This document shows, piece after piece, positions 30,284 through 50,751 of a stretch of 64,000 nucleotides of DNA. Both the position numbers and the translations under genes were made by a program. The DNA lies in assembly GCA_020073145.1 (NCBI GenBank), contig JAIQFS010000020.1:624-64623 (forward strand), written 5' to 3'. Numbering within the stretch: the stretch's first letter is position 1; every line of letters starts with the position of its first letter. A model generated the notes under the pieces. That model was not told the DNA's origin. It did not search any database and worked only from the letters and a program-made list of their open reading frames with translations. Source of the stretch: Terriglobia bacterium. GTDB taxonomy: Bacteria; Acidobacteriota; Terriglobia; Bryobacterales; Bryobacteraceae.

Positions 30284-31708
30284 ATGTCCTGGGGCGAACA
30301 CGTCGGCTGGTGGGCGGGTATGGTCAGGAAACTGGGACGACGCTCCGTGCTGCGTTTGGGATACGCGGCGGTCATTGTGGTTCTGATTCTGTCGGCCATG
30401 GAGGCGTACCGGATTCAGGTGAACGTCTCCCAGCAGCACATCCAGATTTTTTACCGCTATGTGGATCAAGAGGAATCGCTGACCACGCTGCGGCGAAACC
30501 TCTGGCTGGCAGGGAACTATGTGCGCGATTTCTTTATCCAGTCGACTCCCGCGCAGGCGGCCGAGCTGGATTCTCAACTGAAGGCGCTCGAAACGGAAGA
30601 TTCCCAGGTGTTCGACCATCTGAGCCGCGCCTTCCCCGAGAGCGACGCGTTTCGCAAGCTGCGCGCGAGCATGACGGACTTCTGGATACTGGTGAACCCG
30701 GTGCCGAAGACCATGCTTCATTCCACCGAGCAGGAGCAGGTCGAATTCGTCCAGCGTGTCATTGTTCCGCGGCGCGGCGATCTGTATGACGTCCTGCGCG
30801 GATTGAGTGTCACTGACGAAAAACGGGTCCAGGAGAGTTCCCAGCAGATCATCAACGCGCGGCACGAAGCCGCCCAAAGGCTGCTGATCATGCTCGGGCT
30901 CGGTGTGCTGCTCAGCATCCTGGTGGCGCTGGTGAGCATCCATCATGCCGAGAACCTGGAGCGGCGCGCGGCCAATCACTATGAGGCAGTGGAGCAGGCC
31001 CGTCGAGAATTGCAGCAACTCTCCGCGCGCTTGATCGAGATGGAAGAAGAAGGGCGGCGCCAGTTGGCTCGGGAACTGCATGACGAACTGGGTCAGACGC
31101 TGGCGCTGCTCCAGATCGAAGTGTCCCACGCCCAGGCCGCAATTTCAGAGCCCGCCGCCCTACGCGAGTATTTACAGAGGGCGCGTGCCCGGGCGGAAGA
31201 AACCGTTCAATCGGTCCGCGATATTTCGGTGCTCCTGCGGCCGGCACTGCTGGACGATCTGGGTTTGGTGCCGGCCCTGCAGTACCAGATCGACCACTTT
31301 CAAAAACGCTCCGGCATGGCCTGCGAATTCGTGGAGGAGAACGTCGCCGAACATCTTCCTGACGGGCTCAAAACCTGCGTGTACCGCGTGGTGCAGGAGG
31401 CCCTGCACAACTGCGAGAAGCACTCGGGCGCAACCCGGGTAGAGGTGGCGGTGCGCCAGTTGTCCCACAACCTGGTGGCGGAGGTGCAGGATAACGGGCG
31501 GGGCTTTGAGGCGCGCGAGAAGGGCCTTCCCGGCAAGAACACGGGCTTGGGCCTGTTGGGGATGAGAGAGCGCGCCACTCTCGCGGGAGGTTCTCTGGTC
31601 ATCGAATCGTCGCCCGGCCGGGGCACACGTGTCACCTTGCGGATCCCGGTTCCCGATTCTGCCATCCCGGCGCCGGTGCCCGATGCTCCGGTGCAGGTGA
31701 CCGCCTGA
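30284..31708 (+). CDS. NarL-type sensor histidine kinase
   Basis: A 474-residue membrane kinase. Two transmembrane helices (about residues 22-42 and 199-219) enclose a helical periplasmic sensor of about 155 residues. A HisKA_3 domain follows with the phosphorylated His266 in RQLARELHDELGQTLALLQ, then an ATPase domain with VVQEALHNCEKHSGA, DNGRGF and GLGLLGMRERA. A Pro-rich tail closes the protein. The start could be ATG 30284 or ATG 30320, which has a better purine stretch ahead. The stop overlaps the start of the response regulator by one base, so they are partners. It lies at the edge of the cytochrome locus and may control it. Confidence 0.92.
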   Translation: MSWGEHVGWWAGMVRKLGRRSVLRLGYAAVIVVLILSAMEAYRIQVNVSQQHIQIFYRYVDQEESLTTLRRNLWLAGNYVRDFFIQSTPAQAAELDSQLKALETEDSQVFDHLSRAFPESDAFRKLRASMTDFWILVNPVPKTMLHSTEQEQVEFVQRVIVPRRGDLYDVLRGLSVTDEKRVQESSQQIINARHEAAQRLLIMLGLGVLLSILVALVSIHHAENLERRAANHYEAVEQARRELQQLSARLIEMEEEGRRQLARELHDELGQTLALLQIEVSHAQAAISEPAALREYLQRARARAEETVQSVRDISVLLRPALLDDLGLVPALQYQIDHFQKRSGMACEFVEENVAEHLPDGLKTCVYRVVQEALHNCEKHSGATRVEVAVRQLSHNLVAEVQDNGRGFEAREKGLPGKNTGLGLLGMRERATLAGGSLVIESSPGRGTRVTLRIPVPDSAIPAPVPDAPVQVTA

Positions 31709-32355
31709 TGGCCACCCGAATCCTCCTCGCGGACGACCACACGCTGATGCGGCAGGGACTGCGGCACATCTTAGAGAACCGCTCCGACTTCGACATCGTA
31801 GCCGAAGCCAGTTCGGGGACGGAGGCGGTCGAGGCAGCGCGCCAGCACAAGCCCGATGTAGCCATCGTGGATGTGGCCATGAAGGAGATGAACGGCATCG
31901 AGGCCACGATCCAGATCCTCAAGCATTCTCCCGGCACGGCGGTGTTGATCCTCAGCATGTACAGCGACGAGCGGTACGTGCTGCGCGCCGTCAAAGCGGG
32001 CGCCCGCGGGTACCTTCTCAAGAATTCGGCCGGAGACGAGCTGATCCAGGCGATTCACGCGGTGGAGAAGGGCCTGGCCTTCTTCAGCCCGGCGGTGGCG
32101 GAGATTTTTCACAACGGGTTATCGCGCCTCAAGGATACCGGTGAGGCCCAGGACCGCTTCGAGCTCCTGACCGATCGCGAACGGCAGATCTACCAGCTCC
32201 TGGCGGAAGGCAACAGCAACAAAGACATTGCCAACCGGCTCAACCTCAGCCTTCACACGGTGGAGACGCACCGCTGGCGCATCATGGACAAGCTGGACCT
32301 CCACAGCACCGCGGAGCTGGTTCTGAGCGCGGTCCGCCGCGGCGTGGTGAGCTGA
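31708..32355 (+). CDS. NarL/FixJ-family response regulator
   Basis: A 215-residue regulator partnered with the kinase above. The receiver domain has acidic residues Asp9 and Asp10, phosphorylated Asp55 (VAIVDVAMKEMNG) and a lysine in GYLLKNS. The LuxR-type helix-turn-helix is at residues 150-205 (LTDRERQIYQLLAEGNSNKDIANRL and SLHTVETHRWRIMDKL). All key residues are intact. The gene ends 3 bp before the converging Crp/Fnr gene. Confidence 0.94.
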   Translation: MATRILLADDHTLMRQGLRHILENRSDFDIVAEASSGTEAVEAARQHKPDVAIVDVAMKEMNGIEATIQILKHSPGTAVLILSMYSDERYVLRAVKAGARGYLLKNSAGDELIQAIHAVEKGLAFFSPAVAEIFHNGLSRLKDTGEAQDRFELLTDRERQIYQLLAEGNSNKDIANRLNLSLHTVETHRWRIMDKLDLHSTAELVLSAVRRGVVS

Positions 32356-32358
32356 ACT

Positions 32359-33036
32359 TCAGGCCTGGGCTTCCGCCTCGCGCTCCAAGCCGGCACGGTT
32401 CTGGATGCGGAGTTGGTGGCCCTGAATGCGAATGAGTCCTTCGGCCCGGAAGCGCGCCAGGTTGCGCGACACCACTTCGCGCACCGTGCCTAACCGCGAG
32501 GCCAATTCCTGGTGAGTGAGGGGAAGATCGAACTCCTCGCTCCCGGCCTGGCCGGCGGCGTCCAATAACAGACGCGCCAGGCGCTGCGTCACGCTCCCGA
32601 ACGTCATCGATTCGACCACGCTCACCAGGTGCCGCAACCGTCGGCCGACGACTGCGAGCACCTTCAACGCCACGTCGGGATACTGCCGGCAGACGTGCTG
32701 GAAATCGCTCTTGTTGAGAAACAGCGAGACCACCGGGTCCACCGCCCGGACCGATGCCGGATAGGGTCCGCCGTCAAAGAGCGGAAGCTCCGCCACCGTG
32801 GAGGGCGCGGTCTCCAATGCCAGCATCATTTCGCGCCCGCCGGGAGACGTTTTGAAGATCTTCACGCTGCCCTGGATGATGAGGAAGATGCCGGCGCAGG
32901 GCTCACCCTCCCAGAACAGCATCTCGTCGCCCGCAAACCGCCGCTCCACCGCGCGCTGAGCCAAGGCTTCCACTTCGCTCTCGCTCAGGCTGGCAAACAG
33001 CGGGATTTGCGATAGCAATGCGTTCTTTTGGGGCAA
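32359..33036 (-). CDS. Crp/Fnr-family transcription regulator
   Basis: A 225-residue DNA-binding protein with an N-terminal cyclic-nucleotide-binding-like beta-roll (FAGDEMLFWEGEPCAGIFLIIQG, about residues 35-58), a long dimerisation helix and a C-terminal winged helix with recognition helix TVREVVSRNLARF near residue 185. It has no N-terminal cysteine cluster, so it is not an oxygen-sensing FNR; the ligand is unknown. The apparent start is TTG at 33036; no ATG lies in frame upstream nearby. It diverges from the Cyc2-like gene with 241 bp between and may regulate it. Confidence 0.9.
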   Translation of the reverse strand: MPQKNALLSQIPLFASLSESEVEALAQRAVERRFAGDEMLFWEGEPCAGIFLIIQGSVKIFKTSPGGREMMLALETAPSTVAELPLFDGGPYPASVRAVDPVVSLFLNKSDFQHVCRQYPDVALKVLAVVGRRLRHLVSVVESMTFGSVTQRLARLLLDAAGQAGSEEFDLPLTHQELASRLGTVREVVSRNLARFRAEGLIRIQGHQLRIQNRAGLEREAEAQA

Positions 33037-33277
33037 ATTGCTATGGTAATACGGGAAGCACCTGTTGAGGGTTCAAACAGCATGGGTGATTTCGCGCAGC
33101 GGTCGAAACAACAGGAGGGTAATGCCCCATTTCTTCGCGACGGCGGGCGGGTTCGATTGGGCTCAGACGCCACGATATCAAGAGGATAGAATTTGTCCAC
33201 ATATCTGGCCCATCATCTGCTCCACAGGAGAATCCGGCCGGAGCACCAACCGGGCTCGCGCCGGAAGGGGGGGATCT

Positions 33278-34912
33278 GTGCGGAACTTGTTGAAGGTTGT
33301 TCCGGCGCTGGTGACGCTGGCGCTCGGCTCGCTTCTGCTCACTCAAAAAGGCCAGGCGATTCCAGCCTTTTCACGCCAATATGCCACCTCTTGCATGACG
33401 TGCCATATTGACTTTCCGAAGCTCAACGATTTCGGCAAGGCATTCAAGGATGCGGGTTTTCAGTTTCCGAAAGACGATGACACATACATAAAGGTTGCGC
33501 CGGTGATGCTGGGCGCGGAAGCGCAGAAGCAGACCTTTCCCAAGTCGGTCTGGCCGGGAACCATTCCGGGCATGCCGCCCATCGGACTGCGGTTCAATTC
33601 GTTCTTCCAGGCCACGGGGGCCAACCGGAAGCGTTTCGATCCGTTGGCCGGCCCCGGGGGCATTCCGCAAGTTATCCCCGGCACGGACTTTGCCAGCGGT
33701 CTGTTCAGTATCTTTACGGCCGGCAATTTCGGGAGCAGCATCGCGTTCTGGGTGGACGACGATATCAGCGTGGCCGGCAGTAACGGAGCAGGCGGTCTGG
33801 GCGATGCGTACCTGAAGTTCGTCAACGTGAGCCGGTTTCTCAAACTACCAAAAGACTCGCTCAGCGTCCGCGCGGGGCAGTTCGAGCTGGACCTTCCGGT
33901 GACGCAGGCGCGGAGCTACAACCTGAGCCCCTACGACATCTACCAGCAGGCCAACGTCGGTGCCATGAACTCCTTGGTGTCGCTGCAGCAGAACGTGTCG
34001 AACCAGTTCACGTTTGCGGATGCCGCGAAAGGAGTGGAGATCAGCGGCGGGCATCAGTATGGCGGATATCACTATTCGGTGGCAGTCTTCGATCAGAACA
34101 CCGCCGGCATCGATCAATCGGCCAATACCAGCCCGTACGTGCCCTCGCCCACCGGCGGCGCCAATGGCGGCGTCGGCTTCGGATCGAGCACCAGTTTCAA
34201 GAACGTCTACGGACGCCTCTCCTACCGTTTCAATCTGGAGCGCGATTCGGAAAGCCGGCACGACATTCAGGCCGCCGGGGCGACCGGGCCGCGCGATCAC
34301 ACCTACTTGAACTTCGGGTCTTTCTATTTGTACGGAAAGTCGCTCCAGCAATTTGTCGGCGCCGCTGCCGAGAACCCGGTCCTGCGCGCCGAAGAGCCCT
34401 ACTTCCGCGCGGGCGGCGACTTCAATTTCAACTACCGCCGATTCAACGTCTATGGCGTGTACCTGTACGGCCGCGACCAGAACCTGCTGCCGGTAGACGA
34501 CAACGGAATGCTGATCCCGCTTCCGCTCACGTCGGCTTCGCCGCTGCCGGTCAGCTTCATCAAAAGCGTACCGGCGCGGTTCAGCGGCGGCTTCGTACAG
34601 GCCGACTACATGGTGCATCCCTGGGTCATGGCGATCATGCGCTGGGATGGCGTCAATTCCACCGCCGACCGGATCAACGGCCTGGCGCTGGCCACCGATA
34701 CTCCCTTCTTCGGGCCGCTCCACTCCACGCGCACGCGATTCACGCCAGGAGTCCAGTTCCTGATTCATCCCAACATCAAGTTCTCCTTCGAATATCAGAT
34801 CCGCCCGATACAGACCGCCATCGTCGAGACCGATCCGGCCACCGGCAAGCTGGTTGCAGTCGATCCGTTCCGGGTCAACACCGCGCTATTTGGTCTCGAA
34901 TTTGTTTACTAG
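33278..34912 (+). CDS. Cyc2-like fused monoheme cytochrome-porin
   Basis: A 544-residue outer-membrane protein starting at GTG, with a strong GGGGGGGA ahead. The signal peptide (to about residue 27, TQKGQA) is followed at once by IPAFSRQYATSCMTCHIDFP with one c-heme site Cys39-His43, then KLNDFGKAFKDAGF. This order, a Phe-Ala/Ser-Arg-Gln lead-in, one CxxCH and a L-N-x-F-G-x-A-F-K segment before a barrel, is what I know from Cyc2, the iron oxidase of neutrophilic and acidophilic iron oxidisers. The remaining 480 residues alternate polar and aromatic residues as beta-strands, ending in an aromatic residue (GLEFVY), as porin barrels do. Fused cytochrome-porins are broader than proven iron oxidases. 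It is first in a co-directional row. Confidence 0.75.
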   Translation: MRNLLKVVPALVTLALGSLLLTQKGQAIPAFSRQYATSCMTCHIDFPKLNDFGKAFKDAGFQFPKDDDTYIKVAPVMLGAEAQKQTFPKSVWPGTIPGMPPIGLRFNSFFQATGANRKRFDPLAGPGGIPQVIPGTDFASGLFSIFTAGNFGSSIAFWVDDDISVAGSNGAGGLGDAYLKFVNVSRFLKLPKDSLSVRAGQFELDLPVTQARSYNLSPYDIYQQANVGAMNSLVSLQQNVSNQFTFADAAKGVEISGGHQYGGYHYSVAVFDQNTAGIDQSANTSPYVPSPTGGANGGVGFGSSTSFKNVYGRLSYRFNLERDSESRHDIQAAGATGPRDHTYLNFGSFYLYGKSLQQFVGAAAENPVLRAEEPYFRAGGDFNFNYRRFNVYGVYLYGRDQNLLPVDDNGMLIPLPLTSASPLPVSFIKSVPARFSGGFVQADYMVHPWVMAIMRWDGVNSTADRINGLALATDTPFFGPLHSTRTRFTPGVQFLIHPNIKFSFEYQIRPIQTAIVETDPATGKLVAVDPFRVNTALFGLEFVY

Positions 34913-34933: not shown

Positions 34934-35524
34934 ATGTTCTCGATACTATCGAAATCTCAAGCGGTCATCGCGCTTTTGGCGGTTGCCGCCGGTGCGGTTC
35001 ACGCCGGTGAGATCACGGGAAAAGTCACCGCCGGGAAGGGCATCTCCGTGGTCTGGGTGGAGGCTGTGCCCGGGAAGACCTTTCCCAAGCCGGATAAGCC
35101 GATCACGATGGATCAGAAGTCCTTGCTGTTCCAGCCGCACATCATGGTCGCGCCGGTGGGCGTCACGGTGGAGTTCCTGAATAGCGACAACGTGCAACAC
35201 AACATCTTTTGGCCGGCCATCAGCGGCAACAAGAAGCTGAGCCATAACATGGGTACCTGGCCCAAAGGCCAAACCCGCTCCTTTCAGTTCGACACCGTGG
35301 GCGTAGTGCCGCTCTTGTGCAATGTACATCCGGAGATGTCGGGCTACATCATCGTCACGCCCACTCCTCTCTACGCGGAAACCGACGAATCGGGCGCCTT
35401 CAAGATCGCCGACGTGCCGGACGGCAGCTATACGGTGACGGCGTGGCACGAAGGCTACAAGAACCAGTCCAAGCCCGTGACCGTCAAGGGCACGGCGGCG
35501 GCCGATTTCGCGCTGACCAAGTAA
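34934..35524 (+). CDS. Periplasmic type-1 copper protein with regulatory-like tail
   Basis: A 196-residue exported protein (signal peptide to Ala24). The cupredoxin domain has a full type-1 copper site: His89 (SDNVQHNIFWP), Cys129, His132 and Met135 (LLCNVHPEMSGYI). A C-terminal beta-sandwich of about 45 residues resembles carboxypeptidase-regulatory domains (TDESGAFKIADVPDGSYTV). The ATG is 22 bp after the Cyc2-like stop, with AGGA nearby, and the next gene starts 29 bp later. The site suits electron shuttling between the outer-membrane cytochrome and inner-membrane carriers. Confidence 0.85.
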   Translation: MFSILSKSQAVIALLAVAAGAVHAGEITGKVTAGKGISVVWVEAVPGKTFPKPDKPITMDQKSLLFQPHIMVAPVGVTVEFLNSDNVQHNIFWPAISGNKKLSHNMGTWPKGQTRSFQFDTVGVVPLLCNVHPEMSGYIIVTPTPLYAETDESGAFKIADVPDGSYTVTAWHEGYKNQSKPVTVKGTAAADFALTK

Positions 35525-37454: not shown

Positions 37455-37458
<4 letters not shown>

Positions 37459-37949
37459 GCGGAAACGTCAGCACAACACCGACCGCCCAAACCGATCCCG
37501 GCTCCAGCCGCCGGCAAGCGTTTATCCAGCTCGGGGTTGGCTCCATCTGCGTGGCCTGTGCCGGGGCTTCGGTGTTCGGCTACGAATTCCTGGCGCCGAA
37601 CGTTCTTTACGAGCCTTCGCCCATCACCAACGCCGGCAAGCCCGACCGCTATCCGCAAGGCACCGTGACCCAAGACCTGCAGGCGGGCATCTACATCGTG
37701 CACGGTCCGGAGGGCCTCTACGCTCTGTCGGCGGTCTGCACGCACCTCGGCTGCCTCACCGCCTGGAAGCCCGAGTTGGGAATCGTGGCGTGCCCCTGCC
37801 ACGGCAGTAAGTTCCGCCGCGACGGCACCAAGATCGAAGGCCCCGCGCCCAATCCCTTGCCCTGGCTGAAAGCATGGATCAGCGACGAAGGAGATCTCCT
37901 GGTGGACCGTTCCGCGCCCCTCGAGCAGAAGCAGTTTGTGAGGACCTGA
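37455..37949 (+). CDS. Rieske [2Fe-2S] protein of a cytochrome bc complex
   Basis: A 164-residue protein with a Tat-type signal anchor ([14 protein letters not shown], twin Arg19-Arg20) followed by one membrane helix and a Rieske fold. The ligands are complete: Cys95-His97 in CTHLGC and Cys113-His116 in CPCHGS, with Cys100 and Cys115 for the stabilising disulfide. The size is that of the b6f type. It overlaps the FAD/Fe-S gene by 4 bp and precedes the cytochrome b gene by one base. Confidence 0.94.
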
Positions 37950-37950
37950 C

Positions 37951-38697
37951 ATGGCGAACTCCCTGGAGGCCCGGCTCACAAGCCTGCGCGATACCCGCGT
38001 CTGGCGGTCGATCTTCCGCAGCGGATCGGGAGCCACCAATCTGCGCCGCGCGCTCGCCGTCCAGCAGAACGTGTTCCTGCACCTGGCTTCGGTCAAGGTC
38101 CGGAAACGGTCGCTGGCCTTCCGCGTTACCTGGTTCCTCGGCACCCTCACTCTGGGCGCCTTCCTGATCCTAGTGCTGACCGGCATCCCGCTGATGCTGT
38201 ATTACCATCCGTCGGTGCCGCAGGCGTACGCCGACATGAACGACCTGCGGTTTGTCGTCTCGGCGGGCGTCTTCCTCCGCAATCTCCACCGCTGGTCGGC
38301 GCACGCCATGGTGCTGCTGGTGTTCGCGCACATGTTCAAGGTGTTCTATCGCGGCGCCTACCGGCCGCCGCGCGAATTCAATTGGGTGATCGGGGTCGTG
38401 CTGTTGCTGATCACCCTGTTCCTGAGCTACACCGGCTACCTTCTGCCGTGGGACCAGTTGGCGTTTTGGGCCATCACCGTGGGCTCCAACCTGATTTCCG
38501 CGGTCCCGGTGTTCGGCGCTCGAATCCGGTTCCTGCTTCTCGGCGGCCACACTGTCAACGCCAACGCCTTGCTGCGGTTTTACGTCCTGCACTGCGTGAT
38601 TCTGCCGCTGGCAGCCGTCACCTTCGTGGCCATTCATTTCTGGCGCATCCGCAAAGATGGCGGGATCTACTCCGGGGAGAGTAAGCGCCATGAGTGA
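37951..38697 (+). CDS. Cytochrome b, N-terminal (b6-type) subunit
   Basis: A 248-residue membrane protein with four helices. The two haem b ligand pairs are His113/His127 in helix B ([20 protein letters not shown]) and His214/His229 in helix D; the second spacing, 14 intervening residues, is the b6 pattern rather than the 13 of bc1. The Q-site stretch [16 protein letters not shown] is conserved. A 50-residue basic N-terminal extension precedes helix A. It overlaps the subunit IV gene by 8 bp. Confidence 0.93.
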
Positions 38698-39397
38698 ACA
38701 CAAAGACTTCGCCGCCGCCATGGACTCCGATAGCCGCAAGACTCCGGTCCGGGTGGCCTTCGTCACGCGGCGCACGTCTCCTCACGTGAAGCGTCAGGAT
38801 GACGATTACGTCATGACGTTTCCGGAAGCGTTGTTCCGCGGCGTGGTGGCGGTCGAGGTGCTGGCTTTGGTCCTGGTGGTGCTGGCGCTGTTCTGGAACG
38901 CCTCTTTGGAACAGCTCGCCGACCCGATGCAGACCCCCAATCCGGCCAAGGCGCCTTGGTACTTCCTCGGCCTGCAGGAGCTGCTGCACTACTTTCCCCC
39001 GGTCGTGGCCGGCGTGCTGATACCGACCTTGGTGGTGATGGCCTTGATCGTCATCCCCTACTTCCGCATTAATATCGAAGCCGAGGGGCTGTGGACGCGC
39101 AACCGCGCCGGACGCCTCCGCATCCTCGCCGTGGTCATCGCGGTGTTCGTGGTCTTCCTGATCGTCTTTGACGTGTTCGCGGTGCTGATTCCCTCGCTGC
39201 TGGTGGCGGGATTGATGTTTTACTCCGCCACCAACCCGGCGGCCCCGGGCCGCTTCCATCGCTGGCTGGCATCCAAACCGCTCTCGTTCTGGATTATGTC
39301 TTGGTTCCTGCTGGAGGCGGGCGTGCTGACGCTGATCGGCACGTTCTTCCGCGGCCCCGGGTGGTCGTTCGTGATGCCGTGGAGTGGCCAGATATGA
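38690..39397 (+). CDS. Cytochrome b, C-terminal (subunit IV-type) part
   Basis: A 235-residue membrane protein with about four helices, corresponding to subunit IV of b6f complexes. The quinol-oxidation motif PEWY appears as APWY in [18 protein letters not shown] (about residues 84-101), so the glutamate that accepts a quinol proton in classic complexes is replaced by alanine. The chosen ATG overlaps the b6-type gene and has GGGGAGAG ahead. It overlaps the octaheme gene by 4 bp. Confidence 0.88.
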
Positions 39398-41460
39398 GCC
39401 TGGGCGGAAAGATCGCGGCCGCCCGCCGGCTCCTGTTCGGAGACAGCGCGCGCACTTTCGGCACGCTGAGCGTGGTGCTCCTGGCATTGCTCGCCGTCGT
39501 TCCGGCCAAGGATTACTTCCGCGAGTGGCGGACCTACCAGAAGGGGTATCTGCGCCTGGTCTCCAAGCGGAGCGACGCCACCTCCCTGGCCCGGCGCTTT
39601 GAGCCCGGCGTGCAGCAGGTCTGGCTGCCGGAACTGGGAGTGGTCGACCGTTGCGCCACCTGCCACGTCGCGCTCAAGGAATCCAGCCTGGCCGATGTGA
39701 AGACCCAGCCGTTCCGGCCGCATCCGTCGATTCCGCACAACCTCAGCGACTTCGGTTGTGCGTTTTGCCACCGCGGGCAGGGCGCGGCGACGACCGTCGA
39801 AGAAGCGCACCGCAGCACTAAGTCCTGGGAAGAGCCGATCCTGCCGGCCCGCTATTTGGAGTCTTCCTGCGGCCAGTGCCACCTCGACCGGCCGGCCGGG
39901 ACGCCGTTGCTGAATCAGGGACGCGACACGCTGGCCCAATATGGCTGCGTGCGCTGCCACACCATCAAAACGCTGGGCGGCGTCACCCTGGCCGGTACGG
40001 ACGATCCTCCTTCGCTCGCGCACATCGCCGAAAAGACCAGCCGGGAGTGGATCGCGGCCTGGCTTAAGAACCCGCAAGCTTATGCTGCTTCGGCCACCAT
40101 GCCGAACTTCCAGTTGCCGGATGAAGACATCCGCGACATCTCCGCCTTTCTGATGGCGCAAAGCACGCCCTATCGCGCCGGGACCGCCGCGGAGACCGCA
40201 CCCGCTGCTGCGGCGGCCGATGCTGCCGCCCAGCAGGAAGGCGCCAGTCTGTACGGCGAATCCTTCTGCGCTTCCTGCCATGCCACGCAGAACGCCGCCG
40301 GCACCCTGGTGGGCGGAACGCTCGGGCCGGAGCTGACGCGCGTCGGCTCCAAGGTGAAAACGGCGTGGCTGGCGGATTGGCTGCGCAATCCCAAGGTCTA
40401 CGACCCCGAAACCAAAATGCCGCATTACCGGCTCGACTCGAAACAAATCGGGCTCCTGCTGGGGTTCCTCGGCGGCAAGACGGATTCCGATTTCCTCGGC
40501 AACCGCCATTTCGACGCGGCCCCCAAGGCCGAAATCGAGCACGGCCAGAAACTGGTCATCGAGCGCGGCTGCGCGGCGTGCCACGACATCAACGGCGTCA
40601 AGAAGCCGGACGATTTCGCGCCCGAGCTGACGCTGGTGGGGAGCCGGCCGTTGGCGAAAATCCTGTTCGCGCCCGGCGTGCCCGAAACCCTGCCGGACTA
40701 CATCGCGGCGAAGATCCGCCAGCCGCGGTCCTTCGGAAATGCCTTAAAGATGCCGCAGTACACCCTGGCGCCCCAGCAGGTGGACGGCCTGGTGACCGCC
40801 CTGCTCGCACAGACCGAAGGGGCGCAGACCGTGCCCGCCCGGCTCCGCGTGGCGGCGCGCCGGCCTTCCGATTACCACGCCGCGGGCAAGGCCGGGCAGC
40901 TCATCGAAGACATGTCCTGTTTCAGTTGCCACACCATCAACGGCCGGGGCGGCGACATGGCGCCGGAATTGACCTGGGAAGGAACCTCCGTCCAGCGTGC
41001 CTGGCTGGTCAACTTTTTGAAGAATCCCAATACGTTGCGCCCGGCTTTGATCCGCCGCATGCCCAAGTTCAACGTAACGGATGCCGAAGCCAGCACTTTG
41101 GCCGACTACATCATGACGGTCTACCAGACGCCGGCCTTCGATCGCGACGCGCTCGACGGCGCGCACTTCACGGCCGCCGACGGCGAACGCGGCAAAGAAC
41201 TGTTCTACGGCAAGTACGCCTGCCAGTCCTGCCACATCGTGGACCCAAATCAGGACAAGGGATACATCGGCCCGACTCTGACCCAGGTGGGCGTGCGGCT
41301 CAATGCCGCCTGGATCTTCCACTGGCTGAAGAACGCGCAGAGCCTGCGGCCGGGCACGCTCGAGCCGGTGTGGAACATGAGTGACGACGATGCGCGGGCG
41401 ATCGCCGCGTTCCTGATGGCACAGAAGACCGCGCCGCGGGCGGAGGCCGCCCGGAAATGA
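39394..41460 (+). CDS. Membrane-anchored octaheme c-type cytochrome
   Basis: A 688-residue protein with an N-terminal helix (about residues 21-37) that leaves the remainder in the periplasm. Eight CxxCH sites start at Cys87, 122, 159, 185, 292, 393, 509 and 610; the last four are separate monoheme cytochrome c domains, each with an AFLMAQ or ADYIMT helix and a methionine near MPNF, MPHY, MPQY or MPKF, a likely distal ligand. It takes the position of cytochrome c1 or f in the bc complex operon and could link it to several periplasmic partners. It overlaps both neighbours by 4 bp. Confidence 0.9.
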   Translation: MSLGGKIAAARRLLFGDSARTFGTLSVVLLALLAVVPAKDYFREWRTYQKGYLRLVSKRSDATSLARRFEPGVQQVWLPELGVVDRCATCHVALKESSLADVKTQPFRPHPSIPHNLSDFGCAFCHRGQGAATTVEEAHRSTKSWEEPILPARYLESSCGQCHLDRPAGTPLLNQGRDTLAQYGCVRCHTIKTLGGVTLAGTDDPPSLAHIAEKTSREWIAAWLKNPQAYAASATMPNFQLPDEDIRDISAFLMAQSTPYRAGTAAETAPAAAAADAAAQQEGASLYGESFCASCHATQNAAGTLVGGTLGPELTRVGSKVKTAWLADWLRNPKVYDPETKMPHYRLDSKQIGLLLGFLGGKTDSDFLGNRHFDAAPKAEIEHGQKLVIERGCAACHDINGVKKPDDFAPELTLVGSRPLAKILFAPGVPETLPDYIAAKIRQPRSFGNALKMPQYTLAPQQVDGLVTALLAQTEGAQTVPARLRVAARRPSDYHAAGKAGQLIEDMSCFSCHTINGRGGDMAPELTWEGTSVQRAWLVNFLKNPNTLRPALIRRMPKFNVTDAEASTLADYIMTVYQTPAFDRDALDGAHFTAADGERGKELFYGKYACQSCHIVDPNQDKGYIGPTLTQVGVRLNAAWIFHWLKNAQSLRPGTLEPVWNMSDDDARAIAAFLMAQKTAPRAEAARK

Positions 41461-44265: not shown

Positions 44266-45381
44266 CTACCGTGCGCCGGGCTTATTCAGGTAAGCGATCA
44301 AATCAGACATCTGCGGCGCCGTGAAGCGCGGCCAGGCGATGTTGTTTTGCTTCATCCGGTCCAGCATTGCCGGCCCGTGTTCCCACAGCACGGAGACCAT
44401 GGTGATGTCCGAATAGGATCCGGCCCCCTTGCTCAAAGACGGAGCGCCGCTGGATGGATCGTTATGGCAGGTGGCGCAGCCTTTCTCCGCGAACACGTCC
44501 TTGCCCTTGGCGGCATCCCCGCCTCCGCGGAAATACTGACGCGCCCAGACATACCCGAGAATCTGCCGCATCTCTTCCTGCGAGAGGTTCGGCGACGGTT
44601 GCTTCATGCTGGCCTGGTGGTTCCACATGGCCACGGCAATGCTGGTCAGGGTCAGGTTCCGTAGCCGCTCTTCGAGCGCCAGCTTGCCTTTATGACAATC
44701 CGCGCAACCCTTCGACTGGAACAGCGTGGCCCCGGATTCCGAAGGTGGAAACTCGAAGGCCGACACCAATGCCTTGTTCTGAGGCAGGTTTTGGAGATAG
44801 ACCAGCATGTCGGTGAGTTCCTGGGCCGTCAACGGAGACCACCGCAGCTTGCGTTCGGTGTACGCCTGGCGCATCTTTGCGCCGTGGTTCCACATCTGCT
44901 GGGCCAGCACGATCGGGTCGGCCAGGGATTCCCACTTCACGACCGGAGGCGCTCCGGCGGCGTTGGACTGCGTGATCCCGTGGCATTCGAAGCAGTTCTT
45001 CGCCATCATGGCCCGCTTGCCGCGCGCCGCATCGCCCGCTTTTTCGAAATAACGCGCCGACACAAAATAGGCGAACAGGTCGGCCGCGGCTTCCGGCGAA
45101 AGCGCGGGCGGCGCCACCCCCTGGGTCCTCATCGCCTCCCACATTTCGGGTGCATGGTTCCACATCAGGCTCACCATGATGGTGGGAGTGAAGTCCCGCC
45201 CGATGTGCGTGCCCAGATCCGGCGCGCGGTTGCCGCCCTTGCCATTGATGCTGTGGCACTGCACGCAGCGCTCGGTCAGAAAGAGCTGCTCCCCGCGCCG
45301 CGCGTCTCCGACAATTTCGCCGGCTCCCAGCGCGCTCCCGGCCAGGAGTGCGCCCGCCAGTATCACTCGAAGCTTGTTCAT
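44266..45381 (-). CDS. Tetraheme c-type cytochrome with four tandem repeats
   Basis: A 371-residue exported protein (signal peptide to about Ala20). Four CxxCH sites start at Cys39, 130, 226 and 302, at intervals of 76-96 residues. After each comes the repeated signature W-x-H-x3-M: WNHAPEM, WNHGAKM, WNHQASM and WEHGPAM, where Met is the likely distal ligand. This is a fourfold internal duplication of a small cytochrome c domain. It is the last gene of the minus-strand mtr operon, 10 bp after the barrel gene, and is a natural periplasmic shuttle to the decaheme protein. Confidence 0.88.
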   Translation of the reverse strand: MNKLRVILAGALLAGSALGAGEIVGDARRGEQLFLTERCVQCHSINGKGGNRAPDLGTHIGRDFTPTIMVSLMWNHAPEMWEAMRTQGVAPPALSPEAAADLFAYFVSARYFEKAGDAARGKRAMMAKNCFECHGITQSNAAGAPPVVKWESLADPIVLAQQMWNHGAKMRQAYTERKLRWSPLTAQELTDMLVYLQNLPQNKALVSAFEFPPSESGATLFQSKGCADCHKGKLALEERLRNLTLTSIAVAMWNHQASMKQPSPNLSQEEMRQILGYVWARQYFRGGGDAAKGKDVFAEKGCATCHNDPSSGAPSLSKGAGSYSDITMVSVLWEHGPAMLDRMKQNNIAWPRFTAPQMSDLIAYLNKPGAR

Positions 45382-45391
45382 GGCTGTTCTC

Positions 45392-47371
45392 CTACCGCGT
45401 GATCCGCAGCCCGGTCATGAAGACGTGGGTCCGGAACCCCTCGTAGAGATAGAATCCCTCCCCCATTCCATACCACCGCCATTCGGTGTTCCAGGATACA
45501 TTCTTTCTCACGGGAAGGGAAAGCCGCCCCAAGGGCTCGTAGAACCGCGTAGGCCGGCTTCCGTTTGAAATGAAGAGCGAACCGCCCACGGTCACTTGGG
45601 GCGTCATCCCGCCGTAACCGGGCAACATTAGATCGACGGCCGAGCTGGCCTCATGGGCATTTTCACGGTAGCCGGAAACCGCCGGGTTGAAAAACGGCAG
45701 CGACAGATATCCGATGTTGGAGCGAAGCGTGGACCGGTCATACTCACCGGTCACGGTGATCCGCTTGCCGCCGTTCGGAGTCCAGTAGACCGCCAGCGAG
45801 TTGTCCCGGCTCTGGAAATCGGACTGTACGCCCGCCGCCGGGTTCTGATTGTTCAGCAACAAGAAGTTGGCCTGGACCGAAAGCGATGCCGTAGCCTGAT
45901 ACCGCGCCCGCGCCCGCACCTTGTGATAGTCGTTCAAGCTGGTGCGAAAGTAAACGCGATCGCTGCCCGCGGCCTCATAGTCGAGGTTCATCGACAGCTT
46001 CTCCGAAGGCCGGAACGTGAGGCCCGCCAGCCCTACGCTGCGCCGCAGGTCTCCGGAGGCGAAGCTGCCAATCTGGCTGAGCTGCCCGGCGCGCACGACC
46101 GCGTCGCCCCAGACGTAGCGGTAGCCCCCGCGCAGCGTGAGTTTTGCGGGGAGGTCCACGGTCACGTCCACCTGCTGCTGGTTGTAGTTCACCACCTGTT
46201 CGGTCAAAAGCGCGGTATCGACCGTCGTGGCCGCTGTCTTGACGTCCAACAGTTGCGAGAACAGGCCGAAGGCCGCGTCGTGATAGCGGTCGGTCATCCA
46301 CGATTCGACGATGCGCACGCGGCGGAACGGCCGCATCTCAAACCCGGCGTTGCCGCTCACGTGCGGTTGTTTGGCCGTGCCGGTGGCCTGGCTGAGCTCG
46401 CCGCTGTAGAACAGCAGCGGGTTGGCTAGCGCCAGATTGCCGCCCGCCAGGTCCGTGTAAGTGACGTCAACCTTGGGCTGGCTGAAGAGAAATTGGCCGG
46501 AGAAGTCGATCCAGGACATCGGACTGGCGGTGAACAGCGCGCGTTCGTAGATGCCCTGGCCGCGAATCCCATAGGCCTGCTGCAGACTGTTGAGAACCAG
46601 ACCCTGGCCGAGAAAGGGCGTCGTGCGGTCTCCCGGATTCGCCTGGTTGTTGTCAGCCTGATCGTCATTCTTGAACGTGGTGCCGCCCTGCTCCAGCGTG
46701 CCGTGGAAACGGTTGTACTCGAACCGCACACCACCGCGGTAGTTGTTCGTGCTGTCGCGCAGCAGAGACGCAACGGGGTACTCATTGGCCGCATCCGTCA
46801 GCCAGGTATCGATGCCGTGCCCGTAGCCGGAGTTGCGGTCGAACACCAGGTAGGGAACGATGCGCTTGCCCGGAAACAGGTCCAGGGAAACGGTGGTCAT
46901 GCGGCGCCGCACATCGAACGCCTGTTCGTCGAAGCCTCCCGGGGCTCCCGGATTGGCGAACGAGGGCAGGGCGTTGAAGTACGCGAGGTTCCGGTAATCG
47001 AAGCTCAACCGGTACAGCCCGGATTTGCGGACATCCACGTGGGCCGTGTTGTAGGGATCGCCTCCCCATCCGGAGCCGCGTGCGTCCAGCCGGTCGAACA
47101 GGCGTTGCTTGGGGTCTAGAATCGTGAAGTCCAGGCCGAACAGCTTGGGCCCTTCGCCCAGATTGATGACGCTGCGGTAGGCCTGAAAATTCCCGTTCAT
47201 GCCCGTGAGCCAGCGATACCCCAGGTCGACGCTGCCGGTCAGCCACTCGTCGGTGGAGGGCGCGGGATTGGCCGCCGGCTCCTGCGCCGGGCTCGGTGCG
47301 GCGGCTTCGGTTGGCGCTGGAGCTTGCGCCACAGCGGACGCGGCTACCAGGAATGAGAGAAGAAATCTCAT
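45392..47371 (-). CDS. mtrB: MtrB/PioB-like outer-membrane beta-barrel
   Basis: A 659-residue exported protein with a signal peptide (MRFLLSFLVAASAVAQ) and an Ala/Pro-rich stretch up to residue 40. The remaining sequence is a regular alternation of aromatic and polar residues with many short turns (for example GSVDLGYRWLTGMNGNFQAY near residue 46, RLSFDYRNLAYFNALP near 120), enough for about 26-28 strands, as in MtrB. The usual N-terminal CxxC of Shewanella MtrB is not present. It overlaps mtrA by 4 bp. It would form the pore that lets the decaheme cytochrome cross the outer membrane. Confidence 0.82.
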   Translation of the reverse strand: MRFLLSFLVAASAVAQAPAPTEAAAPSPAQEPAANPAPSTDEWLTGSVDLGYRWLTGMNGNFQAYRSVINLGEGPKLFGLDFTILDPKQRLFDRLDARGSGWGGDPYNTAHVDVRKSGLYRLSFDYRNLAYFNALPSFANPGAPGGFDEQAFDVRRRMTTVSLDLFPGKRIVPYLVFDRNSGYGHGIDTWLTDAANEYPVASLLRDSTNNYRGGVRFEYNRFHGTLEQGGTTFKNDDQADNNQANPGDRTTPFLGQGLVLNSLQQAYGIRGQGIYERALFTASPMSWIDFSGQFLFSQPKVDVTYTDLAGGNLALANPLLFYSGELSQATGTAKQPHVSGNAGFEMRPFRRVRIVESWMTDRYHDAAFGLFSQLLDVKTAATTVDTALLTEQVVNYNQQQVDVTVDLPAKLTLRGGYRYVWGDAVVRAGQLSQIGSFASGDLRRSVGLAGLTFRPSEKLSMNLDYEAAGSDRVYFRTSLNDYHKVRARARYQATASLSVQANFLLLNNQNPAAGVQSDFQSRDNSLAVYWTPNGGKRITVTGEYDRSTLRSNIGYLSLPFFNPAVSGYRENAHEASSAVDLMLPGYGGMTPQVTVGGSLFISNGSRPTRFYEPLGRLSLPVRKNVSWNTEWRWYGMGEGFYLYEGFRTHVFMTGLRITR

Positions 47372-48384
47372 TTGAGCAACGCCCGATCCACATAGGATCC
47401 ATGCACCTTCTGGTGACAGAGAGTGCAGTTCTGGAAGCGCGGACTGCGCAGATCATGGAAGGCCGGAGGAATCGTGGCCAGCGTCCCGTCGGCCGGCGGC
47501 GTGGGCAGCGGCAGGTTGGCGTGGCACTCCAGACAAACGAAGCGCACTTCGTGCCGCGTCAGCATGTGCGGATTCGCCGAGCCGTGGGGAACGTGGCAGG
47601 CTGTGCAGCCTTCCAGGCGGACGGCCGCGTGTTCGAATGGAAACGGGCCGGCTTTGTCGCCATGGCAGTTGAAGCAGCCGGGCTCGTTGGCGCGGGACGT
47701 CTGCATGGACCGTGGCAGGAAGCTGCCGTGCGGATTGTGGCAGTCCACGCACGACATGCTGGCCGGCGCGAACGCGCCGCCTTTGGCCAGCGGGTGGCTA
47801 TAAGGCCGCTGGAAGCTGGCCCAAACTGCGGTGTGGCACCCGGCACAGAGCTGGTTGACGGCGTCCGGCTTGCGCGCCACTAGCCCATTGGGCCCATTCT
47901 TGTGAATCGAGTGGCAGGTCACGCAGCTCACCTGGTTCTTGGCGTGGCTACCATTGATGCGCCCGATTTGCGTAGGCTGGTTGCGATGGCAGGTCAGACA
48001 AATGCGGTCGGCTTCCGCCGCCGGCAATTTGGCCGGCTGCCGGATATCGGCCGCCGACACCGACTCGGCGTGCTTGCCGGCCGGACCGTGACAGGCTTCG
48101 CAGGCGCGGTTCTCAAAGCCGCGCTTTTTGTCGGTCTCCACGGCGTGATGTGGATTTTTCTGGAAGGCCTTATAGATATCCTCGTGGCACACCTGGCACA
48201 TTTCGGAACCGATGTAGGCCGGCTGGCCGGCTGCGGGCGGAGCAGGCGCGGGCGGAGCGGGAGCGCCCGGTGTCGGCTGGGCGCTCCCGGAAGCGAGGCT
48301 GAAGAGGGATACCGCTGCGAGCACCGCGGGGAGCGGTGCTCTGCGGGTCAAACGAGTTGCGGACCGCCGGTGCGCAAAGACCAT
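47368..48384 (-). CDS. mtrA: MtrA/DmsE-family decaheme c-type cytochrome
   Basis: A 338-residue periplasmic cytochrome with signal peptide and a Pro/Ala-rich lead-in of about 20 residues. Ten CxxCH sites start at Cys63, 95, 129, 154, 180, 212, 237, 260, 284 and 320, with many extra histidines (for example NPHHAVE, SIHKNG, EHAAVR) as distal ligands, so bis-His coordination is likely. Length and haem number match MtrA, PioA and DmsE. The start is 3 bp after the mtrC stop. In known complexes this protein plugs the MtrB barrel and passes electrons through the outer membrane. Confidence 0.93.
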   Translation of the reverse strand: MVFAHRRSATRLTRRAPLPAVLAAVSLFSLASGSAQPTPGAPAPPAPAPPAAGQPAYIGSEMCQVCHEDIYKAFQKNPHHAVETDKKRGFENRACEACHGPAGKHAESVSAADIRQPAKLPAAEADRICLTCHRNQPTQIGRINGSHAKNQVSCVTCHSIHKNGPNGLVARKPDAVNQLCAGCHTAVWASFQRPYSHPLAKGGAFAPASMSCVDCHNPHGSFLPRSMQTSRANEPGCFNCHGDKAGPFPFEHAAVRLEGCTACHVPHGSANPHMLTRHEVRFVCLECHANLPLPTPPADGTLATIPPAFHDLRSPRFQNCTLCHQKVHGSYVDRALLK

Positions 48385-48387
48385 CCC

Positions 48388-50595
48388 CTATTTTCCGGCG
48401 TGTTCTTTGTCGACGTCAAAATCCGCCCCGGTCGAATGGCAGATATCGCACGTCTCTCCGAATGTCGGACTGGTGTTCAACAAAGCGTGCCCCATGGCCG
48501 ACCGCGTAAAGTGGCAGGCCGTGCAGGCTGAGGTCGTGGGCTGAACCGGGCTCACCAGCCCTTGCGTGTCCAACACGGCGTTCTTGCCGATCGGGAAATT
48601 TGCTTCCGAGGTGTTGACGTGGCACATGTAGCATTTCGCCGTGTCGGCCACCGAGCCCGTGGGGCCCATGGCCGGGTAGCGGACGCCTGTGTTGGGAATG
48701 GAAGCCGGTACGGAAGCGAACGTCGCGCCAAAGTCATTGTGGCTGCCGCCGAAGCCGACGATGGTATAGGTCAGCCCGGCCGCTCCCAATTCCTCGCCCG
48801 TGTGAATCTTGTGCACCATGAGGGCGAAGTTCACCGACTGCGGAGGCAGGGCCTTGTCCGCCGCCACCACGGCGTTACCGCGCACCGAACTGTCGTTCTC
48901 GCTCGGATTATGGCACAGAACGCACATTTCGATCTGGTTCCGGTTCTCGCCATGGACCGACAAACGTGAGTGGCATTGATTGCAGTTATTGATGCTCGCC
49001 ACGGTGCGGCGCGGCACGACCGGACTGCCGTCCACCGAGAAGGGGAATACCACGTTATTAGCGCCATAGTTAACGCTCACCGGCGTTGTGGTGGTGGGAT
49101 TGATGACAAAGGTGCGCCGACCTTCAATTCCGACCGCGTAGGTGCCCGTGGCGGTGGCCGGAATGGCATGCGTGAACGTGTACGAGCAGGTGCCATCCGG
49201 ACTGCAGCTGGCCGTGGAAACCGGGTTTTCGGAGACGTAGCCCGGAGTGGTCGCGCCGAAGTTGGTGTAGCCGTAGTCCGAGGCCGGACCAGCCAGGACC
49301 AGCGCCAGGCGATTGGACCCGCCCGTCAACTGGGCCATGGAAACTCCGTTGCCTTTGGCATCCTTCACCGTAAAGGTGACGGTCGGTTTTTGCCCGGCGC
49401 TGCCGTTGACGACTTTGAGAATACTGAAGACCAGTCCCGGATTGGCCGCCGACTCTTGCGGGTAGACGTGCGCGCCCTTGATCGAAGTGTCAAACTCCAA
49501 TTCGCCCTGAGGGAAGTGGCATTGGGCGCACTGATTGTCGGAGACTTGCGGCAGATTGACGTGGTTCGCCCCGGTCGCGAAATTGACGTTGTCGTGGCAG
49601 GAGCCGCACGCCGCGCGGGTTGGATTCTGCAGCCAGGCGTTGGATTGCGTGGCACCGGTGGTGGACTCGTGGCAGAACGCGCAGCGCCTCGGATCGGACG
49701 GCAGTTCCACGGTGGACCAGTCCGAGACCGCTTGGTTGAAGCCGATGATCTGATAAGGGGTCCCGGCCTGCACGCTCGGCAGTTCGCTGCCCATGTGAAT
49801 CTTATGGATGAAGACCTTCATGTCCACCGTGTTACCGGTGTCGGGATCGGTGGTCTGCGGTGTATGGCACATGATGCACAGTTCCATGCTGCGGCGCGAA
49901 CCGCCGTGGAACGCCAGTTGGTCGTGACACTTGTCGCAGGTCTGGGTGCGAATGATGTCGCGCGGCGCAGCGGTGCCGCCGGCCGGCACGAAGTCATAGG
50001 TGGCATCGTCATAATTGGTGCCCAGGTCGAACTCTGTCAGGTTGCGCGAGCCATAGACCCCCACGCGGTGCGTGGCCGTTGGATCCCAAGCCCCGCCCCC
50101 TTGCGCCAAGGCCTTGGTCTTGAACGTATAGATGTACTCTCCGAGCGCCACCGCCTGCGTCGTCCCGCCCGAATCGGCCCCGGCCTGCACAGCCGTATTG
50201 TGCGTGATCGGACTGGTTTGCGATCGGGTGGCATACGAAACGTACTGCGCTTGCCCCTTCGGAATGTACGCCGCCAGGAAGCTCACGCTGATCGGACCGG
50301 GTGTGACAATTCCATCCTTGTCCAAGGCCAATCCCTTGGGATCCATCAGCTTGTAGTCCACGCTAATGGTACCGTCCGCGGCAATGTTGGCGGACACGAT
50401 TTGAATGTTCAGCCCCGGGCGGATAAAGCTCAGGGTACTCGATGCCAGGTAATACTCTTTGTCGTACACCGTATATCCGTTGTTCCCAAAGAATCGGCTC
50501 CGTTTGGCCGCGCTCATCAGGACTACGGACCCGGCAACCACAATCAGGGCCACGAGATAGCGGCGTGACCGAAGGACCGAAGTAAGAATCCGCAT
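48388..50595 (-). CDS. mtrC: OmcA/MtrC-family decaheme surface cytochrome
   Basis: A 735-residue cytochrome. Ten CxxCH sites form two pentaheme groups: Cys220, 240, 305, 330, 356 and Cys538, 558, 655, 691, 716. Beta-rich regions precede each group (residues 40-210 and 385-530), giving the four-domain plan of MtrC; the pair Cys464/Cys470 in CSPDGTC resembles the redox disulfide of MtrC-type domain III. The N-terminus is a hydrophobic signal (residues 13-30) without a lipobox cysteine. The start at 50595 is set by GGAG six bases ahead; earlier in-frame starts are less well placed. It heads the operon mtrC-mtrA-mtrB-tetraheme. Confidence 0.93.
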   Translation of the reverse strand: MRILTSVLRSRRYLVALIVVAGSVVLMSAAKRSRFFGNNGYTVYDKEYYLASSTLSFIRPGLNIQIVSANIAADGTISVDYKLMDPKGLALDKDGIVTPGPISVSFLAAYIPKGQAQYVSYATRSQTSPITHNTAVQAGADSGGTTQAVALGEYIYTFKTKALAQGGGAWDPTATHRVGVYGSRNLTEFDLGTNYDDATYDFVPAGGTAAPRDIIRTQTCDKCHDQLAFHGGSRRSMELCIMCHTPQTTDPDTGNTVDMKVFIHKIHMGSELPSVQAGTPYQIIGFNQAVSDWSTVELPSDPRRCAFCHESTTGATQSNAWLQNPTRAACGSCHDNVNFATGANHVNLPQVSDNQCAQCHFPQGELEFDTSIKGAHVYPQESAANPGLVFSILKVVNGSAGQKPTVTFTVKDAKGNGVSMAQLTGGSNRLALVLAGPASDYGYTNFGATTPGYVSENPVSTASCSPDGTCSYTFTHAIPATATGTYAVGIEGRRTFVINPTTTTPVSVNYGANNVVFPFSVDGSPVVPRRTVASINNCNQCHSRLSVHGENRNQIEMCVLCHNPSENDSSVRGNAVVAADKALPPQSVNFALMVHKIHTGEELGAAGLTYTIVGFGGSHNDFGATFASVPASIPNTGVRYPAMGPTGSVADTAKCYMCHVNTSEANFPIGKNAVLDTQGLVSPVQPTTSACTACHFTRSAMGHALLNTSPTFGETCDICHSTGADFDVDKEHAGK

Positions 50596-50751
50596 ACGCA
50601 TCTCCAGTAAAAATCCGCTTCCGCCCACCCCAGTCAACCAAGAGGCAACTCGCTCGCCGGGGTGGAGCTCTGCCTCATCTACGAGCTAAAGGATCAAAGC
50701 ACTCGCCAGTCCAAATCTCCAAACCAGGCAAAACGGACTCAGAGATCCTTT

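Follow-up and report, generated by a model that had tools for sequence, protein, structure and literature searches.

From which donor, and into which membrane complex, would an acidobacterial protein resembling the outer-membrane cytochrome Cyc2 carry electrons? The question is raised by a gene on contig JAIQFS010000020.1 of a Terriglobia bacterium, of which a stretch of 64,000 nucleotides, referred to here as the window, was analysed as a whole; all coordinates count from its start. A first-pass annotation of this DNA had taken the gene for a Cyc2-like fused cytochrome-porin in an acidobacterial context, suggestive of an extracellular electron donor; both the setting and the likely extracellular redox partner are supported by the present analysis. 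The most informative part of the locus, absent from that annotation, is an operon of nine genes lying on the + strand in tight order, with their ends overlapping or nearly touching (Table 1). Behind the Cyc2-like gene come genes for a cupredoxin, a GltD/NfnL-type NAD(P) oxidoreductase (hereafter GltD), a Rieske protein, a b6-like cytochrome b, a subunit IV, an octahaem cytochrome c, a monohaem cytochrome c, and a conserved secreted protein, LAPEE.

With a probability of about 0.5, the operon is an inward conduit leading electrons of a soluble extracellular donor, Fe(II) being the likeliest, via the blue copper protein into the Rieske/cytochrome b complex. This reading rests on the gene order in two phyla, the cofactor sites, and the fold; the gene order, the co-conservation of the genes, the cofactor motifs, and the kinship of the Rieske protein to the type found in bacteria performing anaerobic ammonium oxidation (anammox) were observed directly, as was the barrel in the predicted structure. 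That Fe(II) is the actual donor is possible, although we hold this narrower claim with less confidence. The inner-membrane partner complex of Cyc2 was left open by He et al. (2017) where alternative complex III is missing (PMC5566968). Gene order now links a Cyc2-like protein with one particular complex in many Acidobacteriota, represented by metagenome-assembled genomes (MAGs), and in genomes of the green sulfur type.

The Cyc2-like protein

The frame of the Cyc2-like gene is open from position 33065 (TTG), with GTG at 33278 as the start compatible with a signal peptide and the stop at 34912. The protein begins with a hydrophobic leader, signal-like by reading and helical in residues 2–20 of the AlphaFold2 model, followed by AIPAFSRQYATS-CMTCH-IDF-PKL-NDFGKAFKDAGF and a strand-rich remainder ending in LEFVY, i.e., in an aromatic residue. 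It was aligned with 67 proteins from relative loci, the best 80 of 133 obtained in a scan of named genome contigs; all 80 come from MAGs. Short, open, or masked frames and three near-copies among 70 full-length frames were left out of the resulting 68-row alignment. Each of the 68 rows has exactly one CxxCH with PXL at +4, and C39, C42, H43, P47, L49, and N50 are invariant throughout, so the haem motif, kept in every row, goes beyond chance. The plan of a fused monohaem cytochrome-porin, with a single CxxCH behind the leader and an aromatic C-terminus, as proposed in the first-pass annotation, is thus borne out by the alignment, the leader, and the barrel model, with the motif letters FSR in place of the published FAR.

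The AlphaFold2 model built on this alignment (mean pLDDT 73.8, pTM 0.75) has 16 strands of at least 7 residues between residues 102 and 543, while residues 22–98 with the haem site are modelled below pLDDT 50 and the program places no haem. The top Foldseek matches of the model are general porins (OmpU, Omp-Pst1, chitoporin; OprP, 2o4v, E 3.7e-9), and VIA-align ranks the porin Omp32 first among structural matches (2fgq; Z 23.0, rmsd 3.0, 290 aligned residues). The expected porin fold was therefore recovered, and a structure lacking a beta-barrel, which would have spoken against the assignment, did not appear.

Cyc2 has been defined by Keffer et al. (2021) by AXPXFAR[Q/K][T/Y] before CxxCH and PXL four residues after it, and PXFAR[Q/K][T/Y] serves as a filter in that work (PMC8406198). 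The window protein has PXL in this position and, with 544 aa, exceeds the minimum length of 365 aa, and like Cyc2 it combines a leader, one N-terminal CxxCH, and a 16-strand porin. It differs in having FSR for FAR, in belonging to a group of proteins with ARK[YF] as the commonest letters, and in being encoded together with a Rieske/b complex. Strict membership in Cyc2 was rejected because the published motif is lacking, as was an MtrAB/PioAB-type complex, in view of one haem site and a fused barrel instead of a multihaem cytochrome within a separate porin. The strict motif is found in 16 of the 68 rows and missed in 52, of which 43 differ only by S for A (FSR with [QK][TY]) and nine combine FSR with another letter at the Q/K position. 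Surveys filtered by the motif would thus lose most of this group. At E 0.1 the protein gives no match to Pfam or NCBIfam models, and its sole sequence hit in the PDB (E 0.081) is chance-like. Apart from one weak sub-threshold Porin_O_P hit, Pfam matches are likewise missing from seven other Cyc2-like proteins, including four encoded on named plasmids, so that the lack of one in the window protein is uninformative. We consider the protein Cyc2-like; iron oxidation is a candidate function of it, and unproven.

The Rieske/cytochrome b complex and its recurrence

The best PDB matches of the window Rieske protein are 9rk4 (E 7.7e-23) and 9rk3 (E 3.1e-21), followed by a b6f Rieske protein (1.1e-17). 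The first two are Kuste4569 and Kustd1480, respectively, from anammox complexes comprising a b6-like cytochrome b, subunit IV, a hexa- or octahaem cytochrome c, and a putative NfnABC-like NAD(P) oxidoreductase, for which NAD(P)H formation via electron bifurcation has been proposed (PMC12954380). As predicted from its genes, the Rieske/b part of the operon has the subunit set of these complexes: a related Rieske protein, a b6-like cytochrome b with subunit IV, an octahaem cytochrome c, and an iron-sulfur (FeS) NAD(P) oxidoreductase, NfnABC-like by sequence only. The window complex shares these components with Kustd1480-1485 and Kuste4569-4574 of Kuenenia and differs in its connection with a cupredoxin and a Cyc2-like protein predicted for the outer membrane, and in the lack of a conserved cysteine for haem cN in the N-terminal half of cytochrome b. 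The only cysteine present in over 90% of the rows is C215 beside a haem ligand (49 of 54); haem cN is taken here to be attached through a cysteine of cytochrome b. His113, 127, 214, and 229 of cytochrome b are present in 53–54 of 54 rows. His44, found in 54 of 54, recalls one of the N-terminal residues His43/His62 proposed to bind an extra haem b in the anammox complexes (PMC12954380). A histidine at that spacing also occurs in seven of eight b6-like cytochromes b without GltD within 5 kb (70 with both, seven with His only, one with neither, among the cytochromes b fitting the search and pattern), and His44 was therefore rejected as a mark of NAD(P)-linked complexes.

Two other known gene arrangements invite comparison. 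The rus operon of Acidithiobacillus (cyc2-cyc1-cup-cox-rus; PMC10654088) likewise combines a Cyc2-type protein with a blue copper protein, and the likeness extends to two short loci (L100 and L116), which add a dihaem cytochrome c, and to a Cyc2-cupredoxin pair lying between cox genes in genome G019; the window operon differs in containing a Rieske/b complex and an NAD(P) oxidoreductase and no oxidase genes. An FeS subunit, a split cytochrome b, and an octahaem cytochrome c are also encoded together in Nitrospina, Kuenenia, and Methylomirabilis (PMC3578206); there the difference lies in Cyc2, which has 0 occurrences in the available text of that paper.

The gene order is conserved among the relatives of the window protein (type A). 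All six genes following Cyc2, from the cupredoxin to the octahaem cytochrome c, are present in 53 of the 80 loci, with LAPEE behind the operon in 49 of these 53. Contig edges truncate a further 15 loci, among which GltD is still visible in 11. A mini form without the complex, comprising Cyc2, LAPEE, and in nine of ten cases the cupredoxin, accounts for ten loci (in L100 and L116 the dihaem cytochrome c lies between cupredoxin and LAPEE), and Cyc2 with the cupredoxin only for two. The cofactor sites are conserved in the 53 full loci: the copper pattern in 53, the Rieske motif and the four cytochrome b histidines in 52 each, APWYF in 51, the two FeS patterns of GltD in 51 and 52, and eight CxxCH of the c subunit in 52, the remaining c subunit, truncated at a contig end, having seven. 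The pairwise distances obtained for these genes correlate with those of Cyc2 (r 0.82–0.92, 40 loci), which shared descent alone could also yield. Fifteen type A neighbourhoods from further genomes, partly overlapping the 80, comprise nine full loci (L047-L054, L059), one complete up to the contig end (L013), three of the mini form (L010-L012), one at a contig end (L060), and one that lacks Rieske/b and encodes cupredoxins together with a hexahaem protein related to the c subunit (L057). The idea that an additional multihaem gene regularly adjoins the operon was rejected, since another open reading frame (ORF) with at least seven CxxCH is found in only three of the 80 loci (L108, L113, L131), many of the 80 being short. 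In genome G003, the operon for the b and c subunits is cut at the cupredoxin by the end of contig C107 (L174), and a mini Cyc2 locus lies on another contig.

Two other acidobacterial types, sharing mainly the N-terminal domain with type A, were distinguished. Four of seven type B loci (L014, L015, L055, L056) encode Cyc2, a small cytochrome c, GltD, Rieske, a fused cytochrome b, and a hexahaem cytochrome c; of the rest, L058 has Rieske and b without GltD, and L061 and L062 the small cytochrome c only. Among the four type C loci, L063 and L065 contain the cupredoxin, GltD, Rieske, b, and octahaem c; GltD is absent from L066 and the complex from L064.

The FMO protein is a mark of green sulfur bacteria, known also from Chloracidobacterium. 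In the phylum that includes the Ignavibacteria genome G436, it was found in 95 of 395 genomes (94 over the cut-off), and Cyc2-like matches in 51 of the 79 FMO-bearing genomes searched. From the match list, 28 neighbourhoods were picked by hand; genes for Cyc2, a Rieske protein, a split cytochrome b, an octahaem c, and a cupredoxin are present in 18 of them, in each case with eight CxxCH and the copper pattern. The other ten comprise the same set cut at a contig end (L277), two loci on or at contig ends (L270, L278), five with other ARK[YF] paralogs (L251, L253, L254, L255, L275), and two with proteins of the ARQT motif (L257, L258). A paper joining Chlorobi Cyc2 with a Rieske gene cluster was not found among the open-access papers searched, and the available portions of PMC8302410 and PMC5566968 describe no such cluster. 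A core module of Cyc2-like protein, cupredoxin, and octahaem Rieske/b complex may be common to Acidobacteriota and green-sulfur-type phototrophs, which we put forward tentatively, as part of the wider claim considered below. A contig of the G436 MAG itself (L145, one of the 80 relative loci) carries Cyc2-like, cupredoxin, and LAPEE proteins near the acidobacterial ones (55% in the best segment of one search, 68% in another), and this occurrence may be due to transfer or misbinning.

The recurrence also bears on a plainer explanation, namely that the Rieske/b complex is an ordinary complex III, a general menaquinol oxidase, and the Cyc2-like protein a passenger, a porin with an unrelated role. 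The subunits of the complex do carry standard motifs, and there are Cyc2 loci without the complex and complexes without Cyc2. On the other side, the association recurs in two phyla and in three acidobacterial Cyc2-like types, the haem site is invariant in the 68 rows, and a second, separate Rieske/b complex is encoded elsewhere in the own genome, so that the one in the operon is not the sole complex of this kind. We regard this explanation as improbable.

Direction of electron flow and the donor

In the inward conduit, the barrel of the Cyc2-like protein, with its one haem c, would take electrons from a small soluble extracellular donor, most likely Fe(II), and pass them to the cupredoxin, predicted to be periplasmic, and on to the octahaem cytochrome c bound to the Rieske/b complex. 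From there, electrons could run downhill to a terminal oxidase, and a part of them might be driven uphill, by the proton-motive force or by bifurcation, through Rieske/b to the quinone, presumably menaquinone, and to the cytoplasmic oxidoreductase with NAD(P)H as the putative product. These locations, the order and direction of transfer, and the donor we infer from the features described above.

Inward flow is favoured because of the tested Cyc2 proteins, the phototroph-type genomes, and one neighbourhood of oxidase genes. One tested Cyc2 protein from each of three clusters oxidises Fe(II) (PMC8406198). The phototrophs among the FMO-bearing genomes would need external donors. The oxidase neighbourhood is that of G019, in which the Cyc2-cupredoxin pair lies on the opposite strand between cox2 and cox1 (Cox1 backed by PF00115, the other labels by reading) within what may be read as an alternative complex III-oxidase operon. 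Genes of the COX1 type are present in all 14 searched genomes with type A Cyc2.

The main and serious rival is flow in the opposite sense, in which menaquinol would be oxidised at Rieske/b, the high-potential electron leaving via octahaem c, cupredoxin, and Cyc2-like protein to Fe(III) complexes, Mn(IV), or humics, and the low-potential one reducing NAD(P). It is to be taken seriously because the anammox proposal runs in this sense: the similarly built complexes are proposed to bifurcate from quinol, with the high-potential reaction unnamed for Kustd1480-1485 (PMC12954380). Moreover, the record titles of 24 of the 80 relatives name palsa, bog, or fen, Acidobacteria of Arctic peat soil have been suggested to reduce Fe(III) (PMC3669403), and an MtrCAB-like cluster lies in the same window. 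On the other hand, a cupredoxin partner would suit high-potential donors, and electron uptake would agree with the presence of the module in phototroph-type genomes that encode FMO. We know of no Cyc2-type protein acting as a reductase, which likewise speaks against outward flow. On balance we find outward flow somewhat unlikely.

Inward flow could also start from a donor other than Fe(II), such as Mn(II), reduced humics, nitrite-like or sulfur species, an electrode, or a partner cell, and here the placement of the protein matters. Trees were built by a quick method, their groups being named by the commonest motif letters, and for both of them the program warned of long branches meeting. In a 65-row tree, 21 ARQT proteins (15 from FMO-bearing genomes, six from named proteobacterial plasmids) are separated from 44 ARK[YF] proteins including the window protein with SH-aLRT 99, and type A forms a clade with 100; seven type A rows of an earlier tree were left out and eight of 25 rows from L201-L226 used. 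Removal of eight type B rows and the long type C row L044 gave a 56-row tree that retains both the split (99) and the type A clade (100). As to the plasmid rows, tblastn with the window protein reached two Caballeronia records only, and a second search from the protein found there added seven records of six genera, of which five were used in the trees. Chlorobi Cyc2 was placed in cluster 1 by Keffer et al. (2021, PMC8406198) and McAllister et al. (2020), for which reason the ARQT proteins of FMO-bearing genomes were taken for cluster 1; the ARQT group is presumed to represent clusters 1 (FMO-genome rows) and 2 (plasmid rows). Cluster 3 is the likely home of the window protein, since a hot-spring Cyc2 of Acidobacteriota has been assigned to it (PMC9671151).

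That the window protein groups with the ARK[YF] and not with the ARQT proteins leaves room for another donor. So does the candidate status of Cyc2 in Manganitrophaceae, which oxidise Mn(II) (PMC9040806), and the neighbours of GltD-Rieske/b complexes vary: next to the hexahaem cytochrome c of L196, for example, a large protein is encoded whose leader is Tat-like. Against this, the operon contains no gene for a donor-specific enzyme, and the tested homologues named in PMC8406198 use Fe(II). A donor other than Fe(II) is, in our view, rather unlikely.

Several observations count against the inward conduit from Fe(II) into NAD(P)H. The window protein, reading AIPAFSRQY with FSR instead of FAR, deviates from the strict Cyc2 motif in a single residue, is placed apart from the ARQT proteins in both the 65- and the 56-row tree, which include no named row of cluster 1 or 3, and probably belongs to the cluster whose function was called the most uncertain by Keffer et al. 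(PMC8406198). The gene is patchy: a Cyc2-like match is found in eight of 41 near genomes and a type A ortholog in only five, the own genome included (within the phylum, 117 of 396 genomes match a mixed Cyc2-like profile). Cyc2 and the complex also occur apart, the former in 12 of the 80 type A loci (ten mini, two with cupredoxin only), and GltD-Rieske/b complexes without Cyc2 nearby in L196, L197, and L198. GltD is encoded in 0 of the 28 loci examined in FMO-bearing genomes. A plain autotrophic demand for NAD(P)H is not apparent, as a search for RuBisCO was negative in the own genome and positive in only two of 14 genomes; a search for ATP-citrate lyase gave 0 of 15 and is uninformative, its controls being equally silent. 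Finally, clusters of the MtrCAB type, such as that in the window, can carry electrons outward in other bacteria.

In its widest form, the claim is that the whole path from an extracellular donor to NAD(P)H is encoded in one operon, with a docked NAD(P) oxidoreductase in place of complex I, that the core of this module is shared by two phyla, and that most of the acidobacterial type A copies examined fail the motif filter; taken jointly, this is doubtful. If the module does take electrons in, extracellular lithotrophy may be commoner in bog-, palsa-, or fen-like habitats than surveys show, being possibly under-counted because the published motif screen would drop 52 of the 68 aligned rows. In addition, for the kind of complex to which NAD(P)H formation is tentatively ascribed in anammox bacteria, the module supplies a candidate for the high-potential partner.

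Individual operon genes and flanking regions

The features of the locus are listed in Table 1.

Table 1. Genes of the operon and the adjacent regulatory gene, with their positions in the window
Feature	Position	Strand	Basis
Cyc2-like fused monohaem cytochrome-porin, 544 aa, GTG start	33278..34912	+	ORF, 68-row alignment, AlphaFold2, Foldseek, VIA-align
Cupredoxin, type-1 Cu ligand pattern H...C-NV-H-PE-M, C-terminal CarboxypepD_reg domain	34934..35524	+	Pfam Copper-bind, CarboxypepD_reg above cut-off
GltD/NfnL-type FAD-NAD(P) oxidoreductase, N- and C-terminal FeS cysteine clusters, 634 aa	35554..37458	+	Pfam Fer4_20, Pyr_redox_2, Fer4
Rieske 2Fe-2S protein (CTHLGC...CPCHGS)	37455..37949	+	Pfam Rieske
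b6-like cytochrome b, 248 aa, four haem-ligand His	37951..38697	+	PF00033
Subunit IV-like cytochrome b C-terminal part, Qo motif APWYF	38657..39397 (start may be 38690)	+	PF00032
Membrane-anchored octahaem cytochrome c	39394..41460	+	8 CxxCH
Monohaem cytochrome c lipoprotein, 245 aa	41457..42194	+	ORF with one CxxCH
Conserved secreted protein LAPEE (function unassigned), 410 aa	42181..43413	+	Conserved position; no Pfam match
Divergent Crp/Fnr-type regulator, possible controller of the operon	32359..33036	-	cNMP_binding, HTH_Crp_2

Pfam matches above the cut-offs were obtained for the cupredoxin, the FeS flavoprotein, Rieske, cytochrome b, and its C-terminal part. The weak PDB matches of the cupredoxin include amicyanins and other blue copper proteins, and the best ones of the GltD/NfnL-type oxidoreductase are 9bov/9bp5 and 9n5u, with NfnABC as the top match. 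Among NCBIfam models, ExtP and ExtQ of the selenite/tellurite reduction operon are the nearest to cytochrome b and subunit IV, and ExtS is the third match of the octahaem cytochrome c; the window proteins differ from this system in that all three matches fall below the curated cut-offs. The octahaem cytochrome c also matches SoxX above the cut-off (126.5 vs 61 bits, in five stretches), which may be read as a shared cytochrome c domain and not as SoxX identity. Two scanned relatives of the monohaem lipoprotein match Big_1 and Cytochrom_C. LAPEE is predicted to have a two-part alpha/beta structure (AlphaFold2, pLDDT 89.1, pTM 0.57), for which Foldseek gave no match among solved structures at E 0.001.

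Downstream of the operon, an MtrCAB-like porin-cytochrome cluster is located on the - strand (44266-50637). It encodes a protein with ten CxxCH and MtrC/MtrF domains, a DmsE/MtrA-type decahaem protein above the NCBIfam cut-off, a cytochrome c with four haems, and a protein of barrel size that matches MtrB/PioB weakly and below the threshold.

A scan for promoters and terminators around the Cyc2-like gene gave one weak site (0.7 expected) and no terminator (2.5 expected). Judging from its position, the Crp/Fnr-type regulator may control the operon. Further upstream (30284-32355, + strand) lie genes for a histidine kinase and a response regulator, of the NarL type by reading; in several other loci NtrC-type regulators are encoded near the Cyc2 gene instead of this pair.

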